Virus record (IMG/VR): IMGVR_UViG_3300021378_000158
Location: 1-24,445 of that record
Reading direction: 5' to 3' (one strand)
DNA from: a virus
DNA: 24,445 nucleotides
Under the pieces are notes generated by a model. The model did not search any database, was not told the origin of the DNA, and saw nothing but the letters and a program-made list of their open reading frames with translations. This document shows, in pieces, positions 4,283 to 22,441 of the stretch (its first letter is position 1; every line of letters begins with the position of its first letter). The translations under genes and the position numbers were made by a program.

Positions 4283-4320
4283 TGTGTGCTCCGATGTTGT
4301 GTGCCAGTTAGTAGTCGATT

Positions 4321-4360
4321 TATTTAGTTGTTGTTCCTGTTATTCAGTTGTTATTCCTGA
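4321..4360. repeat. 20-bp tandem direct repeat (two copies)
   Basis: Copies at 4321-4340 and 4341-4360 match at 17 of 20 positions (shared core AGTTGTT.TTCCTG). They lie upstream of the phosphoesterase gene, and the second copy runs over the stop codon (4351-4353) of the preceding gene. There is no coding reason for the repeat in the first copy, which is intergenic. Confidence 0.6.
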
Positions 4361-7829: not shown

Positions 7830-8699
7830 TCACTCGGGAACCTCTATGCCTTTGCACGACTTGCAGCCCTCGGGTGAGATATTGCACGCAAGTGGAGTAC
7901 TTGCTCGCACGGCGCGGGCAATATCGAACGCGTTGTCGAGCATGTCCTTGACGATGAACGGGTCAGCCGTAACAACAAACTCTTTGTAGGACTGGTCTGC
8001 CTTGAGTTCATACAGGAACACAATTTCCGAAGGCGCGGACTCTAGAACTCCACGCTCTGCCATTCTGCGGGCAAGTTCCAAGTACAACTGGCCTTGACGA
8101 ATGTGTGTAGGAAAAGGACGGCGGACGTCACGCCATGCGCTAAAAAGATCGTTGCCGCCTTTGAACAAAGACGGCTGTTCAAGCCGCATGGTTCCTGAAC
8201 CAACTGACTTGATCTCAATCATGAAGTCTTCTTTAAGACCCTTAACCCAGCCGTCAGAGTGGCCAGCAATCATTAAGTCAGGGTCAGAAAGTGGAACCTC
8301 TTTGTAAGACACCTGTGGGTCTCCACACAAAGAGCATGCTTCGGGTGAAGTATCCCAGAAGCGATTGCCACAGTCGTGGCACTGCCACACGCCGTACATC
8401 CAGCCGCCTTCACGAATCCACTCTTGCCACTTGTGGTGAATAGAGTGACCTTCGTCAAAAATTGACTGCAGCCGAAGACCGGGACGATCCTCATTCTGGG
8501 TGACTCCGATAATTCGGAAGTAAGAGGCTCGAACGCAGAAATCGTTCTTTACAAGTTCTGACGGGTGTATGACGTCTTGACGTCGGGAAGTATCAAGTGG
8601 GCGAGTGAGCAGGTGTCGCTCAATAGGGCCGATAAGCCGGGTATCTGCTTTCTTGGTGTCAAGGAACTGCTTTAGTGAACCGCTTGGCTTTATTCCCAC
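7830..8699 (-). CDS. Cas4/RecB-like PD-(D/E)XK exonuclease with zinc-ribbon insert
   Basis: A 289-residue nuclease. H85 (DEGHSIHHKW), D149 (AGHSDGW), E162 and K164 (MIEIKS) and a downstream RQGQLYLELA box form the RecB-type active site. C55 plus C272, C279 and C282 sit where Cas4 and AddB place the four ligands of an iron-sulfur cluster. Between motifs there is an inserted CxxC-x11-CxxC zinc ribbon (C107, C110, C122, C125). The role is probably 5' or 3' end resection feeding the RecA-like recombinase. GTG at 8699 is preferred because GGAG lies seven bases upstream; the ATG at 8705 is only one base from that GGAG. Either start overlaps the whiB gene by about 40-47 bp. Confidence 0.88.
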   Translation of the reverse strand: MGIKPSGSLKQFLDTKKADTRLIGPIERHLLTRPLDTSRRQDVIHPSELVKNDFCVRASYFRIIGVTQNEDRPGLRLQSIFDEGHSIHHKWQEWIREGGWMYGVWQCHDCGNRFWDTSPEACSLCGDPQVSYKEVPLSDPDLMIAGHSDGWVKGLKEDFMIEIKSVGSGTMRLEQPSLFKGGNDLFSAWRDVRRPFPTHIRQGQLYLELARRMAERGVLESAPSEIVFLYELKADQSYKEFVVTADPFIVKDMLDNAFDIARAVRASTPLACNISPEGCKSCKGIEVPE

Positions 8700-9012
8700 C
8701 GTCATGCTCCAAAATAAACTGTTTGAGTGTTTTGGTTTTGCTGGACTTTTCCCACTTGCGCTGGAGATGACTGCGCTCGCGGTGGGACATGCCGCCCCAG
8801 ATGCCATGAGTGTCCTCCATCGAGATGGCGTACCAGAGGCACTGGCTGCGGACAGGGCATGGAGGATCTCCCTCGCCTGTGCCCCAACAAATAGACTTTG
8901 CTTTGTCGGCAATGGGCTTGTAGAGACGACGGTCTCTGGGTGGGAAGAAGATGTCGGTGTCGACGTCCATGCATTTGGCGGTGTATCGCCATGAGTGTGC
9001 GGGTTCTCTCAC
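8659..9012 (-). CDS. whiB: WhiB-family transcription factor
   Basis: A 117-residue WhiB-like protein. Four cysteines (C14, C42, C52, C58) would hold a 4Fe-4S cluster, followed by the family's G-I-W-G-G turn (70-74) and a basic C-terminal region (RERSHLQRKW and later Lys-rich residues) for DNA contact. Wbl proteins bind sigma factor region 4 and alter host promoter use; phage versions can block host whiB genes. Here C42 and C52 are separated by nine residues, whereas the usual spacing is two. GTG at 9012 is the start needed to include C14, with GGAGGT close upstream. A 120-bp leader gap with an extended -10 precedes it. The basic tail continues about 40 residues beyond the turn, longer than minimal phage WhiBs. 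Confidence 0.93.
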   Translation of the reverse strand: MREPAHSWRYTAKCMDVDTDIFFPPRDRRLYKPIADKAKSICWGTGEGDPPCPVRSQCLWYAISMEDTHGIWGGMSHRERSHLQRKWEKSSKTKTLKQFILEHDGGNKAKRFTKAVP

Positions 9013-17558: not shown

Positions 17559-17776
17559 TGAAATTCCTCGTCAATTTCTGTGGCACCTCGAAGAAGTGAT
17601 CCGCAAGATGCGCAGACCATTTCCGTGAAGTAGCCTGCGATGGTTTTGTCCTCGTCGAACCAGATAAGTGCGTGGAAAACTTGGTTGCCGCATACGCAGA
17701 CGGTGGTGGGACCCATGAATAAAAGGTCAGTACCGTCGGGCTCTATGTAGAAGAGTTGGTACACGGGTTGGCTCAT
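17555..17776 (-). CDS. small putative zinc-binding protein, 73 aa
   Basis: A 73-residue protein with C27-x-C29 and C55-x2-C58, which could make a zinc knuckle, within a mostly beta-strand sequence (YQLFYIEPDG, LIWFDEDKTIAGYF) and an acidic tail. I do not recognise it. It overlaps the primase gene upstream (ATGA) and the SNF2 gene downstream (ATGA), so it is translated as a linker between two replication enzymes. Small zinc proteins in such positions may serve as adaptors; this one has no other sign of function. Confidence 0.75.
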   Translation of the reverse strand: MSQPVYQLFYIEPDGTDLLFMGPTTVCVCGNQVFHALIWFDEDKTIAGYFTEMVCASCGSLLRGATEIDEEFQ

Positions 17777-18711
17777 GCAACTCCACCAAGGGCTGCTTTT
17801 CCGAAGGCGCGGGATTTTGCTGTCGCGAGACCGTTGTGTAGTTGATCCAAAGTCATGTCTCCGGGGTCTTTCGCATCGACGTCGCTGTAGTTAAAGAAGC
17901 GGACACTTCGTAGAACTCCTTGGGTGTCCTTGAGGAGTTCGATGCTGGACTTTCTACCGGCGTCATCTTTGAATGGGTTGTCGAGGGCGAAAACCACATC
18001 GTCGGCTGCGCTCATGAGGAGTAGTTGTAGTTTGGACACGATGGCTCCGTAGGTGGCGACCGCGCCTGTGATGCCGTCAGATTGGAGGCGCACTGCATCA
18101 AGTGGGGACTCCACGACAACCATTCGCCCTCCGGTAAACGCTTGGTATCCAAAGAGTGTTCCACTCTTTTTTACCCCGAGGGGGTAGTTGCGGAATACGC
18201 GCTCTACTTCGGATTTTTCTTGCCAGCCAAGGAGTGCGTTGTCGACGGGGTTCCTGATGGGCAGTATCCACGACTCGGATACAAAGTTCCATCTGACTCC
18301 GTAGAGGTCGCACGCTTCGGGGGAGAGGTGGCGTCGTCGTAGCGCCCACTTTGGTGGTGCGGAGAACCTGTAGATCTGGGACTCGGAGATGTGCTGGCGG
18401 TGGCTCACGATGGGTTGTGGGCCGGGGATGCGGGAGATGCTGTCCACCAAGTCGGGCTTGACGGTGAGTGTCTTGGCTTGGTCGAAGGTGACGCCCTTGA
18501 GGTCTGAGATCAACGTGATTATTGATCCTTTGTAACCGCAAGAGAAGCACAGGAACAGACCTGTGTTTATGTTGATCGACCATGACGGGTGGGAGTCGTA
18601 CTTTCCGGTCCGCTGGTAGTGCATAGGACATTCCGCAACAAACTCGTCACCCCGGGCGTAGCCGGAGATGCCTAGCCCAGACAGTGTGGACGAGACGTCG
18701 ATGGAGGTCAC
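17773..18711 (-). CDS. dnaG: DnaG-type DNA primase
   Basis: A 312-residue primase with two parts. The N-terminal CHC2-type zinc domain has C28-P-M-H31 and C55-x2-C58. The Toprim domain has VVVESPLDAVRL near 198, with the metal-binding Glu, and FALDNPFKDDAGRK near 245 supplying the Asp cluster. This makes RNA primers for the polymerase. It is shorter than bacterial DnaG and shows no C-terminal helicase-interaction domain. In the second Toprim motif a three-residue insertion (Pro-Phe-Lys) separates the Asp residues compared with the usual DNDxAG. GTG at 18711 overlaps the upstream stop as GTGA and has no clear ribosome binding site, so it relies on coupling. Confidence 0.92.
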   Translation of the reverse strand: MTSIDVSSTLSGLGISGYARGDEFVAECPMHYQRTGKYDSHPSWSININTGLFLCFSCGYKGSIITLISDLKGVTFDQAKTLTVKPDLVDSISRIPGPQPIVSHRQHISESQIYRFSAPPKWALRRRHLSPEACDLYGVRWNFVSESWILPIRNPVDNALLGWQEKSEVERVFRNYPLGVKKSGTLFGYQAFTGGRMVVVESPLDAVRLQSDGITGAVATYGAIVSKLQLLLMSAADDVVFALDNPFKDDAGRKSSIELLKDTQGVLRSVRFFNYSDVDAKDPGDMTLDQLHNGLATAKSRAFGKAALGGVA

Positions 18712-18966: not shown

Positions 18967-18995
18967 AATGTATTTCAAACTAGTAGCGCATGCTA
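18967..18995 (-). promoter_or_regulatory. putative promoter before the primase operon
   Basis: Minus strand: -35 TAGCAT (18990-18995), 17-bp spacer, -10 TACATT (18967-18972). The -35 includes the stop codon of dnaB. Spacer and hexamers resemble the candidates at 9770 and 15897. The gap is only 36 bp. Confidence 0.45.
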
Positions 18996-20276
18996 CACCT
19001 GTGGGACGCTTGGACCAAAGCGGCTCGCCGTAACGCACCCCGGGCATTTGCTCGAAGCGTCCTCGTCATGGAAGCACCCTGTATCCCAGCGCCATACCAA
19101 CACGGTGGAGTCAGGTCCGCAGTTACGGGAGGCGACAATGCGTAGTTCGCGGATCTCGTCATCTTCAGGCACTTCCTGCAGTCCAAGGATCACATCAGAG
19201 TCTTGGAAAAAACTGGATGAGTAACCGATCGAATCGGCAGAGACTTTCCCGCCCTTCATCTTCCACAGAAGAGTTTGCGTGGATATGACGACCGGAATGT
19301 TGATCCGTTGTGCGAGCCGCTTGAGCGAGCGAGTGATGTTGGTCAGTGCCTGCGGAGTATTGGATTCACCGCTCTGTTCATCCTGCATCAAGTACACCCC
19401 GTCGATGAACGCCACGTCCGGCTTGGTCTGATCAATCTTTGCCGCCAGAGCGCTCACAGTGATCCCATGCATCGCATCGCTGAGTGTGAACTGGTTCTCC
19501 ATCGAATCCATATCGGTGAGCATCGACCGGTACCGATCGAACTCGGGGGAAAGAAGTGAGCCCCTGCGCATCCTGTCGTGGGAGACCTTAGACCGCATTG
19601 AGTCATGGCGGACCTGCTGCTCGGTGTTGGACATCTCAAAAGACTGAAACAAAACATTGTGACCTGCTGCATGGATATTGATGGCGGTTTGCAGCAGAAT
19701 CTGCGACTTTCCTGTCTTAGGGGGAGCGATGACGGTGACCAGTTGGCCACCCTGCAGACCCGCTGTCGCCTCATCGATCTTCTCATAACCTGTAGGTAAT
19801 CCAAGAAGACTTCCCGAAGAAGACGCAAGGTCCTCGTATGTCAGCAGCCGAGTAAGGGGATCAAGTTCCAGATGCATATCGGTGACACCGGGAACACCCT
19901 CGCGATGTATATCGGTAACACCCTGCTCAATAAGAGAAAGCGCGGCCTCGTGATCGTTTGTGCTCGAAAGGACCTCGGCTGCACCTTGGATCGTGTCCTC
20001 AACCTTGACGTATCTTCTATACGCAATGAACTGATCGAGTAAGTAATCAAGTGAGTCTTCTACCTTAAGAATCGCAAAGTTAGGAAACTCCGCCCGCACG
20101 GTAGTAGCGGTGGCTACCTCCCCGTACTTACCCCAATGATCGACAAGCCAGCGAAAGACTTCCCGAACCTCAGGATTCACAAACCAATCAGGCTGTACAC
20201 CAATAGACAACAAAGGAGTGACGTGGCGCTCCCGAATCACTCGAGAGATTAAGCGAACCTCGTTATCGGCCGCCAT
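18993..20276 (-). CDS. dnaB: DnaB-like replicative helicase
   Basis: A 427-residue hexameric helicase. Residues 1-110 match the N-terminal helical domain, then the RecA-like core starts LPTGYEKIDEATAGLQGGQLVTV with Walker A APPKTGKS (184-191), the FQSFEMSN motif (210-217), Walker B VAFIDGVYLM (D292), and STQTLLWK. The arginine-finger segment lies near RIVASRN. The C-terminal 30 residues contain three cysteines (C401, C411, C414), which is unusual and may hold a zinc ion. It unwinds the fork with the primase and polymerase. The ATG at 20276 overlaps the upstream stop as TGATG. The loader-like gene lies two genes upstream. Confidence 0.93.
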   Translation of the reverse strand: MAADNEVRLISRVIRERHVTPLLSIGVQPDWFVNPEVREVFRWLVDHWGKYGEVATATTVRAEFPNFAILKVEDSLDYLLDQFIAYRRYVKVEDTIQGAAEVLSSTNDHEAALSLIEQGVTDIHREGVPGVTDMHLELDPLTRLLTYEDLASSSGSLLGLPTGYEKIDEATAGLQGGQLVTVIAPPKTGKSQILLQTAINIHAAGHNVLFQSFEMSNTEQQVRHDSMRSKVSHDRMRRGSLLSPEFDRYRSMLTDMDSMENQFTLSDAMHGITVSALAAKIDQTKPDVAFIDGVYLMQDEQSGESNTPQALTNITRSLKRLAQRINIPVVISTQTLLWKMKGGKVSADSIGYSSSFFQDSDVILGLQEVPEDDEIRELRIVASRNCGPDSTVLVWRWDTGCFHDEDASSKCPGCVTASRFGPSVPQV

Positions 20277-20987: not shown

Positions 20988-21572
20988 TCAGTCCTCCTCA
21001 TGGGTTACCTCCATGATGACGGCTATAAAAAAAATGTCACTTGATAAGTTACCCAAAAAAGAATCTTTAGGACGCGACTTAGACGTGACAATGGTGGGAA
21101 GCCCCTGATCAAACCTGCGACCAATCAACGCATCAAGAGTTGAGTCCACCCAACCCGATTCCGTCCGGTGCTCGTCGCCGTATCCCGACAGGATCAACAA
21201 GTCGTCGTCCATCCGGGATCGGAATTCCCGTTCGCCCTCTGGCCGCTCAGACGCCAAGAAGTCGCTGCTGCGAAGGTAAAGCAACGATCCTATAGATTCC
21301 CGGATCAACAAGTCCTGAGCCACAGCCGTTGCCACGGCAACACCGTTACGGCCAACGAGCCACAGCCCTTTCCCACAGAATTCAAAGTTTCCCTGCGCCC
21401 GAACCACGTCCCCAGTTGTCACACGCTCTGACCACTTCTCCACCAAGCCGTGGGGGCGGGCACCTTCGAGTAGAGGTGCCACATGCGGGGAATCTGGCAG
21501 TAATCCGAGGTAGCGGGGGCCTATCTTGGATAGCCGTAAGCGCGAGGTTGTTAGGCCCCTGTACTCCCTCAC
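20988..21572 (-). CDS. degenerate DnaC/IstB-like helicase loader
   Basis: A 194-residue protein with the layout of an AAA+ helicase loader. GKGLWLVGRNGVAVATAVAQ (68-86) occupies the Walker A place, DDLLILSGYGDEHRTESGW (123-141) the Walker B place, and IGRRFDQGLPTIVTSKSRP (150-168) the sensor-1 and Arg region. The N-terminal 60 residues include RYLGLLPDSP, typical of actinophage loaders. However the P-loop Lys/Thr and the Walker B Asp pair are absent (V80, A81, S129, G130). It would bind DnaB next to the initiator. GTG at 21572 overlaps the initiator stop as GTGA, with GGAGG a few bases upstream; a TTG at 21608 is less likely. Confidence 0.8.
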   Translation of the reverse strand: MREYRGLTTSRLRLSKIGPRYLGLLPDSPHVAPLLEGARPHGLVEKWSERVTTGDVVRAQGNFEFCGKGLWLVGRNGVAVATAVAQDLLIRESIGSLLYLRSSDFLASERPEGEREFRSRMDDDLLILSGYGDEHRTESGWVDSTLDALIGRRFDQGLPTIVTSKSRPKDSFLGNLSSDIFFIAVIMEVTHEED

Positions 21573-22441
21573 AGGGCCTCCATCTGGGCGTCCAGACTGG
21601 TGACCCAATCGTCGGAAACCTGCTCGCGGGTGATCTCGCGGTAGTTCTGCTGCAAGAAATGCAGGAATCGTTTGTAGGCTGGCGGGGTCTCGGTCAGCGA
21701 GGTGACCGTCTCGATATCTTCAAAAAATCGATCCACGGCGGTCGCCATGTCTGTGACCGAGAGGCCGTGCTCTTTGGACCATTTCTGGAGGACCACGGTC
21801 ATGGTCGAGCCGTCGGTGCCACCGCCCAAAATGTCTGGCCGGGAGGTGACCATCCGGTGGCGGAACTCTTTGACCACATGGGCGACCGACCACTGGTCGC
21901 GGGGAGTTAGGCGGTGGTACTTAAGGCTTTCTCGTCGCTGGGCACGGGTTGGGCGTTCACGGTGTGAACGGTTTTCAGGCCGCCCCACGCCTGCAAGATG
22001 GTCGCCGTCGTCGGTTTCGTAGTAAATTGGCACTATTCGTGTTATCCCTTTCTCGGGGGTACCCCGGGAGATAAGAGAACCTTTAGGTTCTCTTGTCGAC
22101 CTATGATCACTAGTCGTCCTATCGGCCTTTTCTACGTACCCTGTTTGTCTCACTGGTGGGATTTCTTTTCCCATATGTGGGATTTCTTGTCTCACCTGTG
22201 GGATTCCTTGGTGTGCGGCTGGCAAGGCGTAAACGCCACTTCCACACCGAATGAGGATGCCTTTTTCGACAATTCCTTGGATAGACCTGTGTGCGGTGGA
22301 CCTGCTAACGACCATCAGTGCCGCTACATCTTCGATCCTGACCCTGATCACTCCGTCGTTTTCGTAGGTGAGCAGGACGCATGCCGCCATGAACTCTTGG
22401 GGTGTAAGCCCTTTGTTGAGTAGGTCGTTTACAGATGTCAT
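21569..22441 (-). CDS. winged-helix replication initiator (lambda O / DnaD-like role)
   Basis: A 290-residue protein. Residues 12-75 form a winged helix (LTPQEFMAACVLLTY, RIEDVAALMVVSRSTAHRSIQGIVEKGILI, then a wing). Residues 76-170 are a polar, Pro/Arg-rich linker that includes a heptad repeat GIPQVRQ-EIPHMGK-EIPPVRQ (79-99). A helical C-terminal domain (about 175-290, with WSVAHVVKEF and YKRFLHFLQQNYREI) could bind the loader or helicase. The combination of N-terminal DNA-binding domain, linker and C-terminal partner domain immediately before a loader gene is that of phage initiators. The coding sequence contains an iteron-like array and palindromes. ATG at 22441 has only a weak ribosome binding site. 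Confidence 0.8.
   Translation of the reverse strand: MTSVNDLLNKGLTPQEFMAACVLLTYENDGVIRVRIEDVAALMVVSRSTAHRSIQGIVEKGILIRCGSGVYALPAAHQGIPQVRQEIPHMGKEIPPVRQTGYVEKADRTTSDHRSTREPKGSLISRGTPEKGITRIVPIYYETDDGDHLAGVGRPENRSHRERPTRAQRRESLKYHRLTPRDQWSVAHVVKEFRHRMVTSRPDILGGGTDGSTMTVVLQKWSKEHGLSVTDMATAVDRFFEDIETVTSLTETPPAYKRFLHFLQQNYREITREQVSDDWVTSLDAQMEAL
22051..22071. repeat. GC-rich imperfect palindrome inside the initiator gene
   Basis: A perfect 10-bp palindrome GGGGTACCCC (22056-22065) is extended by TCTC on the left and GGAGA on the right with a small mismatch. It lies next to the perfect palindrome at 22073-22094, so the two make a nearly continuous 44-bp symmetric stretch. Confidence 0.45.
22073..22094. 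repeat. perfect palindrome inside the initiator gene
   Basis: AAGAGAACCT (22073-22082) and AGGTTCTCTT (22085-22094) are perfect inverted copies separated by TT. The site codes for part of the initiator linker (Arg-Glu-Pro-Lys-Gly-Ser-Leu). A perfect 10+10 symmetry inside a coding region is unlikely by chance. Confidence 0.7.
22147..22209. repeat. three 21-bp iteron-like repeats (candidate replication origin)
   Basis: Units at 22147-22167, 22168-22188 and 22189-22209 share the core TGGGATTTCTT (TTCC variant in the third). The first and third also share GTCTCAC at the left, and the middle unit contains TCCCA-TATG-TGGGA, itself symmetric. The 21-bp period is two helical turns. The repeats lie in the initiator's linker coding region and encode three seven-residue repeats. 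Confidence 0.6.

Follow-up and report, generated by a model that had tools for sequence, protein, structure and literature searches.

The initiator locus and its relatives

The window, the 24,445-nucleotide stretch of viral DNA analysed here (positions 1 to 24,445 of IMG/VR record IMGVR_UViG_3300021378_000158), carries on its minus strand a gene whose product is, from its sequence and predicted structure, a candidate winged-helix initiator. It is followed in gene order by a degenerate DnaC-like loader, a small SWIM-type protein, a protein of unknown function, a DnaB helicase and a DnaG primase. The genes and domains concerned are the following:

21569–22441, minus strand: initiator gene, 290 aa (open reading frame, internal ATG at 22441)
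22220–22441, minus strand: winged-helix DNA-binding domain, residues 1–74 (profile matches and AlphaFold wHTH)
22031–22033, minus strand: candidate internal start (GTG); the family conserves its position, and its ribosome site in the window is poor
21572–22033, minus strand: C-terminal domain, a stand-alone gene in the loci L060 and L084 (locus comparison)
20988–21608, minus strand: degenerate DnaC-like helicase loader (phrog_26922, E 5e-5; 26% identity to the AAA+ loader of L084)
18993–20276, minus strand: DnaB-type replicative helicase (Pfam/PHROGs profile matches)
17773–18711, minus strand: DnaG-type primase with zinc ribbon and Toprim (Pfam/PHROGs profile matches)

The AlphaFold model lays the initiator protein out as a winged helix, a disordered linker and a helical C-terminal domain, with a confident wHTH at residues 1–76 and disorder at residues 77–160. 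In profile searches the window protein gave a weak match to MarR_2, HTH_36 was matched in 9 of 14 of its relatives, and most relatives match the HTH_36, HTH_Crp_2 or MarR_2 models; Foldseek matched the N-terminal part to wHTH regulators, all at E of at least 0.001. No homology to lambda O or SPP1 G38P is recognisable, since Pfam and PHROGs name neither family and, for the comparison with lambda, return only other wHTH families. The window initiator had no match among 50,697 phage records, and profile and fold searches matched its C-terminal domain to no family or fold. The neighbouring loader reads VGRNGVAVATA where the intact AAA+ loader of L084 reads GGPGLGKTT (Walker A), and one Walker B aspartate also seems to be missing; on these residues it is a possible pseudo-ATPase.

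Two contigs with 81% identity came up in searches with the window protein, and DnaB searches added many more related loci. The first DnaB set carries the initiator in 67 of 81 loci; in the remainder, several of which are short upstream, no homolog was found. Altogether, initiator homologs occur in 190 of 226 related loci and amount to 96 distinct proteins. No cultured relative of the window initiator or of the L022 initiator was found in the phage collection, L095 gave a single partial helix-turn-helix match there, and DnaB matches in that collection reached at most 31% identity. The phage family is large and has almost no cultured members in the phage collection. A search for the host through bacterial genomes found nothing. 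The window encodes a WhiB transcription factor (8659–9012, minus strand; PF02467, E 4e-17). Because WhiB proteins are known from actinobacteria and from phages that infect them, an actinobacterium is the probable host.

Repeated dyads in the linker codons

The iterons and two hairpins, H1 and H2, all lie inside codons of the disordered linker. A reading of the sequence alone (hereafter the sequence-only reading) had placed the repeats and both palindromes there, and the modelled linker at residues 77–160 indeed spans all three. In gene order, the elements are:

22145–22210, unstranded: iteron array of three 21-bp units (TRF and repeat finder)
22190–22203, unstranded: iteron dyad 1 in gene order, TCTCACCTGTGGGA on the plus strand (exact dyad match)
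22169–22182, unstranded: iteron dyad 2, TCCCATATGTGGGA on the plus strand (exact dyad match)
22148–22161, unstranded: iteron dyad 3, TCTCACTGGTGGGA on the plus strand (exact dyad match)
22098–22144, unstranded: spacer, AT-enriched at third codon positions and a candidate for unwinding (AT3 excess)
22073–22094, unstranded: hairpin H1, perfect 10+10 palindrome (repeat finder, covariation in relatives, family-wide position)
22054–22066, unstranded: hairpin H2, GC-rich, CGGGG-GTA-CCCCG on the plus strand (core; comparison with L018)

The three 21-bp direct repeats, placed by the sequence-only reading at 22147–22209, were recovered by TRF as an array at 22145–22210 (period 21, 3.1 copies, 77% matches), the top-scoring tandem array in the window, and the repeat finder set the unit starts at 22145, 22166 and 22187, i.e., a spacing of 21 and 21. 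Every unit contains a 14-bp dyad, TCYCA-N4-TGRGA, whose only exact matches in the 24.4-kb window are at 22148, 22169 and 22190. When the codons of the open reading frame were shuffled synonymously, the repeat score was reached in 0 of 60 shuffles. Elsewhere in the window, at 4320–4359, TRF also recorded a two-copy 20-bp tandem repeat, TTATTCAGTTGTTATTCCTG.

Among the relatives, 47 of 86 linkers contain a single dyad in two or more copies directly after the winged helix, compared with 3 of 318 control windows; a simple detector found no repeated dyad in the other 39. The half-sites vary by clade (TCCCA/TGRGA, GTTTCA, GTAACA, CCCACA, CGGTA, CCCTC or GCCTC, and GCCCT), and they vary together with the recognition helix of the adjoining domain: SRTTxWRDM pairs with GTTTCA, SRMQISR with GTAACA, S-x-ESxRR with CCCACA, SSDKT with CGGTA, and SR[SA][ST]AHR with TCCCA. 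Common descent partly accounts for this association.

The array was also said to encode three heptapeptide repeats, and QGIPQVR/QEIPHMG/KEIPPVR can be read in frame from the three units. Such in-frame heptads are present in the window, in its 81% relative L018 and in L020, as would be expected if the repeats were selected as peptide (three heptads) and the palindromes arose from codon choice or by chance. Several observations speak against that explanation. The linker is disordered in the model, and it is the dyads rather than the peptide that are conserved: distant relatives have lost the peptide and carry repeated dyads of different sequence at the equivalent place. The sequence-only reading had named relatives with the peptide kept and the DNA repeats lost as evidence against an origin; the relatives show the opposite, dyads kept and peptide free. 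In L020, read by eye, the peptide keeps its 7-residue period although the three dyads are spaced by 22 and 20 bp, and dyad spacings in some relatives are 31, 32, 37 and 58, none of them a multiple of three. Between the window and L018, 13 of 13 sites of the iteron stretch with the same amino acid also share the codon, whereas in the wHTH region 30 of 53 such sites do. The off-register spacings and the frozen iteron codons indicate that selection acts on the DNA.

Pairs of such dyads at a distance of 21 bp were also sought across 2.9 million viral contigs; 14 stretches were recovered, 2 of them belonging to the family. Unrelated wHTH proteins also appeared, with three or four dyad copies directly after the winged helix in L005 (575–1393) and L016 (6448–7449) and two copies at the same place in L017 (1280–2074). 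The dyads in these genes are TCTCA-N4-TGAGA or TCCCA-N4-TGGGA at 21-bp spacing. That unrelated wHTH genes share this layout suggests that it arose more than once.

A covarying hairpin beyond an AT-enriched spacer

In the window, H1 reads AAGAGAACCT-TT-AGGTTCTCTT. The perfect 10+10 palindrome reported at 22073–22094 is confirmed, and it extends to 22070–22097 with 13 bp per arm and one mismatch. The second, GC-rich palindrome reported at 22051–22071 exists, but over that span it is imperfect, pairing at 7 of 10 positions when read by eye, and its solid core is 22054–22066; in this H2 stretch, 8 of 8 amino acid-identical codons are unchanged between the window and L018. Synonymous shuffles of the open reading frame contained a 10-bp hairpin in 4 of 300 cases, a figure that leaves some room for palindromes from codon choice or chance. 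The window hairpin in isolation is thus only moderately surprising, and it is the relatives that make the case.

Perfect arms of at least 8 bp, most often 10, are present in 64 of 86 linkers and in 0 of 567 control windows. About a quarter of the linkers lack a hairpin of at least 8 bp, so that neither repeated dyads nor the hairpin, as tested, is universal among linkers. In most relatives of 45–93 kb there are just 2–6 such hairpins per genome, H1 among them. When 2.9 million viral contigs were searched with the H1-H2 pattern, 24 of 24 matches fell in the initiator gene in the coding orientation; in many clades the GC-rich H2 comes after H1.

In a set of 21 distinct sequences of H1, pairing holds in 98.1% of cells; double-sided changes number 63 and one-sided changes 1, and the covariation score is 0.832, compared with 0.209 for shuffled and at most 0.195 for slid alignments. 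These sequences had been chosen by a Watson-Crick screen, and a recount therefore took in the imperfect clades, the pairs being counted in a hand-set register because MAFFT misaligned the larger H1 DNA alignment. Here 302 of 320 cells were Watson-Crick, with G-U in 3 on the coding strand and 9 on the template strand. This covariation, together with the family-wide counts of hairpins and dyads, already contradicts selection for the peptide or chance as the source of the elements, which we regard as highly improbable. Since the stem sequence varies while the symmetry is kept, and the loop has 3 or 4 nt, an extruded hairpin or cruciform fits better than an operator bound by a dimer. With G-U pairs so scarce, a function in RNA alone is disfavoured.

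A GNA or GNNA loop closed by C-G on the template strand was found in 28 of 35 unique H1 sequences, compared with 7 of 163 control hairpins; this loop marks the family and not the window, whose own loop is TTTA rather than GNNA. DNA hairpins of the cGNAg/cGNNAg type have been described as extraordinarily stable (PMC4686876), and the promoter hairpins of phage N4 require the C-GNA-G loop and closing pair to extrude (PMC4496689). Such a loop in most unique H1s, directly upstream of the internal start, would suit an N4-type promoter, in which H1 is a template-strand hairpin for a phage RNA polymerase transcribing the C-terminal domain and helicase operon. We consider this very unlikely. The largest frames in four larger relatives are 960–1866 aa, whereas the N4 vRNAP has about 3500 aa; each genome has one gene-linked H1, whereas N4 has several promoters; and the H1 stem sequence varies freely, whereas N4 keeps the stem bases that contact the polymerase. 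A PF00940 search of 12 records gave no match, with a control equally silent.

Other properties of the hairpins were also considered. Wobble pairs at first seemed to indicate the folding strand, with G.T on the template strand, and this was rejected when an unbiased count resembled the controls (non-Watson-Crick wobble in linkers 7 sense and 16 template, in control helices 26 and 35, no difference). The DNA folding energies of the two strands differ by 0 to −0.4 kcal/mol, which did not discriminate between them. Rfam models had no match in the window, and an intrinsic terminator was dismissed on the finding of no T-run after H2 in the sequences read.

The spacer between the iterons and H1 is a candidate unwinding stretch. 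For the window, the excess is moderate, with AT3 at 22 observed against 14.8 expected (P=0.009) in a tested region that includes part of the array and H1. The AT3 excess of the spacer over own codon usage is strong in the GC-rich clades L022, L026, L088, L044 and L061 and not significant in several AT-rich clades. An excess of in-phase TA triplets is found in L022, L026, L088, L040, L029 and others, and is not significant in the window (P=0.1). The linker of L110 contains, before H1, a long run of almost nothing but the codons ACT, AGT, ATT and GTT; read from the opposite strand, it is a series of TAN triplets.

A candidate internal start at the C-terminal domain

In relatives, an in-frame internal start directly precedes a conserved WxDDD motif. 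The SD match at this position is only 3 in the window and at least 5 in 33 of 53 relatives, compared with 3% of control windows. In L060 (4019–4543, start TTG) and L084 (4000–4536, start GTG), the C-terminal domain is a stand-alone gene with its own SD that begins exactly at the internal-start position of the family. The wHTH and linker were not found in the sequence examined for either locus, so the origin there must lie elsewhere. The 3′ end of the initiator gene (21572–21750) is 97% identical in DNA between the window and L018, phages that differ elsewhere, with 52 of 54 amino acid-identical codons unchanged, suggesting recent recombination or another hidden constraint.

A conserved SD and in-frame start after the hairpins, at the very position where L060 and L084 begin their C-terminal domain gene, would be expected if the segment served expression control and not replication, the wHTH binding the dyads as an operator and an H1-H2 mRNA structure, akin to a 5′ leader, controlling the internal start. 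We judge this unlikely. G-U pairs on the coding strand, at only 3 of 320 H1 cells, are unusually few for an RNA helix. The hairpin-less clades L064, L085, L079 and L083 retain the internal ribosome site, and L060 and L084 have the start without hairpins; thus, the start does not need the hairpins. In the window itself the internal ribosome site is poor, and the AT-enriched spacer beside the iterons is left unexplained. Expression control and origin function could coexist.

Discussion

We consider it probable that the linker-coding segment 22051–22210 is a theta-type replication origin within its own initiator gene, and in the phages of this family the initiator gene very probably also houses the replication start site. 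A self-contained initiator-plus-origin had been proposed from the single sequence, and it gains support when 190 related loci, encoding 96 distinct proteins, are compared. Features of the architectural class of initiator-embedded iteron origins, of the lambda O/SPP1 gene 38 kind, are present: repeated intragenic dyads, and an initiator followed by a loader and DnaB. GC skew was set aside as an origin mark, as the detrended minimum lay near the gene in 1 of 8 larger relatives and the skew tracks gene orientation.

The elements, their position throughout the family, the covariation of H1, the association of recognition helix with half-site and the gene neighbourhood are direct observations; from them we infer the following series of events. 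Winged-helix dimers would bind the dyad iterons on one face of the DNA, in 21-bp steps, and the AT-enriched spacer beside the iterons would open. H1 and H2 would extrude where the DNA is supercoiled or has already melted, most likely forming DNA hairpins of the template (plus) strand with hyperstable loops, and the extruded hairpins may hold the bubble or mark an entry point. Next, the C-terminal domain together with the DnaC-like loader would recruit the phage DnaB and DnaG. A stronger form of the origin reading makes the hairpins obligate: H1 and H2, as template-strand cGNAg/cGNNAg hairpins, would nucleate opening beside the iterons and serve loading or priming. We hold this form tentatively, as possible and somewhat doubtful. 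If true, one segment would be linker, iterons, unwinding element, hairpin and start of a nested protein.

Origins within initiator genes are already known from lambdoid phages and SPP1, as are in-frame Rep pairs from plasmids. What is new is the family, the conserved hairpin pair, the series of recognition helices and half-sites, and the nested start; no description of the arrangement in this phage family was found in the open-licence literature. The initiator gene gives a computable origin signature for a large environmental phage family that has hardly any relatives in culture. The half-sites, of at least seven types, and the seven recognition-helix types beside them form a natural data set on winged-helix specificity, and the hairpins raise the question of whether extruded DNA hairpins like those of the N4 promoters are put to use at phage replication origins.

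Comparison with known systems

The basal unwinding system of bacterial oriC contains DnaA-trios (PMC8287927), arrays of 3′-GAT-5′-type triplets next to the initiator boxes. Similarly, the sites of the family lie beside AT-rich DNA in which some clades have an abundance of TAN triplets, in phase and on one strand. Unlike in the DnaA-trio system, the clade of the window shows such triplets weakly or not at all, and they may be no more than a consequence of AT-richness; the likeness is a lead only. In plasmid pIGRK, a single rep gene yields the in-frame proteins RepR and RepR′ through an internal start (PMC6854812). The initiator gene likewise has an in-frame full-length product and a putative internal-start product; RepR′ binds DNA and inhibits, whereas the putative short product here would be without the wHTH, and its ribosome site in the window is weak.

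At the promoters of the N4 virion RNA polymerase, a template-strand C-GNA-G hairpin extrudes at physiological supercoiling (PMC4496689). The H1 of the family mostly has a template-strand loop of the C-GNA-G type and may extrude in the same way. Unlike H1, the N4 hairpins are promoters with shorter stems (7 bp in the crystal complex), and, unlike in N4, no large polymerase frame was seen in four larger relatives.

In SPP1, oriL lies within gene 38 and comprises direct repeats and an AT-rich unwinding element, with G38P as initiator, G39P as loader and G40P as helicase (PMC6316719). The window shares with it repeats and, as a candidate unwinding element, an AT-enriched stretch within the initiator gene, and the set of initiator, loader and DnaB, and the window protein gave no sequence match in the phage collection to link it to SPP1. 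Unlike the window, SPP1 has a second origin, oriR, and uses the host primase, and its description (PMC6316719) mentions no hairpin pair such as that of the window family.

In lambda and Stx phages, ori-lambda lies in the middle of gene O, with inverted-repeat iterons, an AT-rich flank and the loader gene next to it, and in-frame insertion alters the iteron number (PMC7466680). The locus described here resembles it in the inverted-repeat iterons inside the initiator gene, the adjacent loader gene and, as a candidate unwinding tract, the AT-enriched flank. The lambda-like arrangement suggested by the sequence-only reading holds for the embedded repeats; the palindromes, as hairpin elements, stand apart from the iterons and do not belong to a lambda-type iteron set. 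Unlike lambda, the window family has a covarying hairpin pair after the spacer and a conserved internal start, and in the window both helicase and primase are encoded by the phage.
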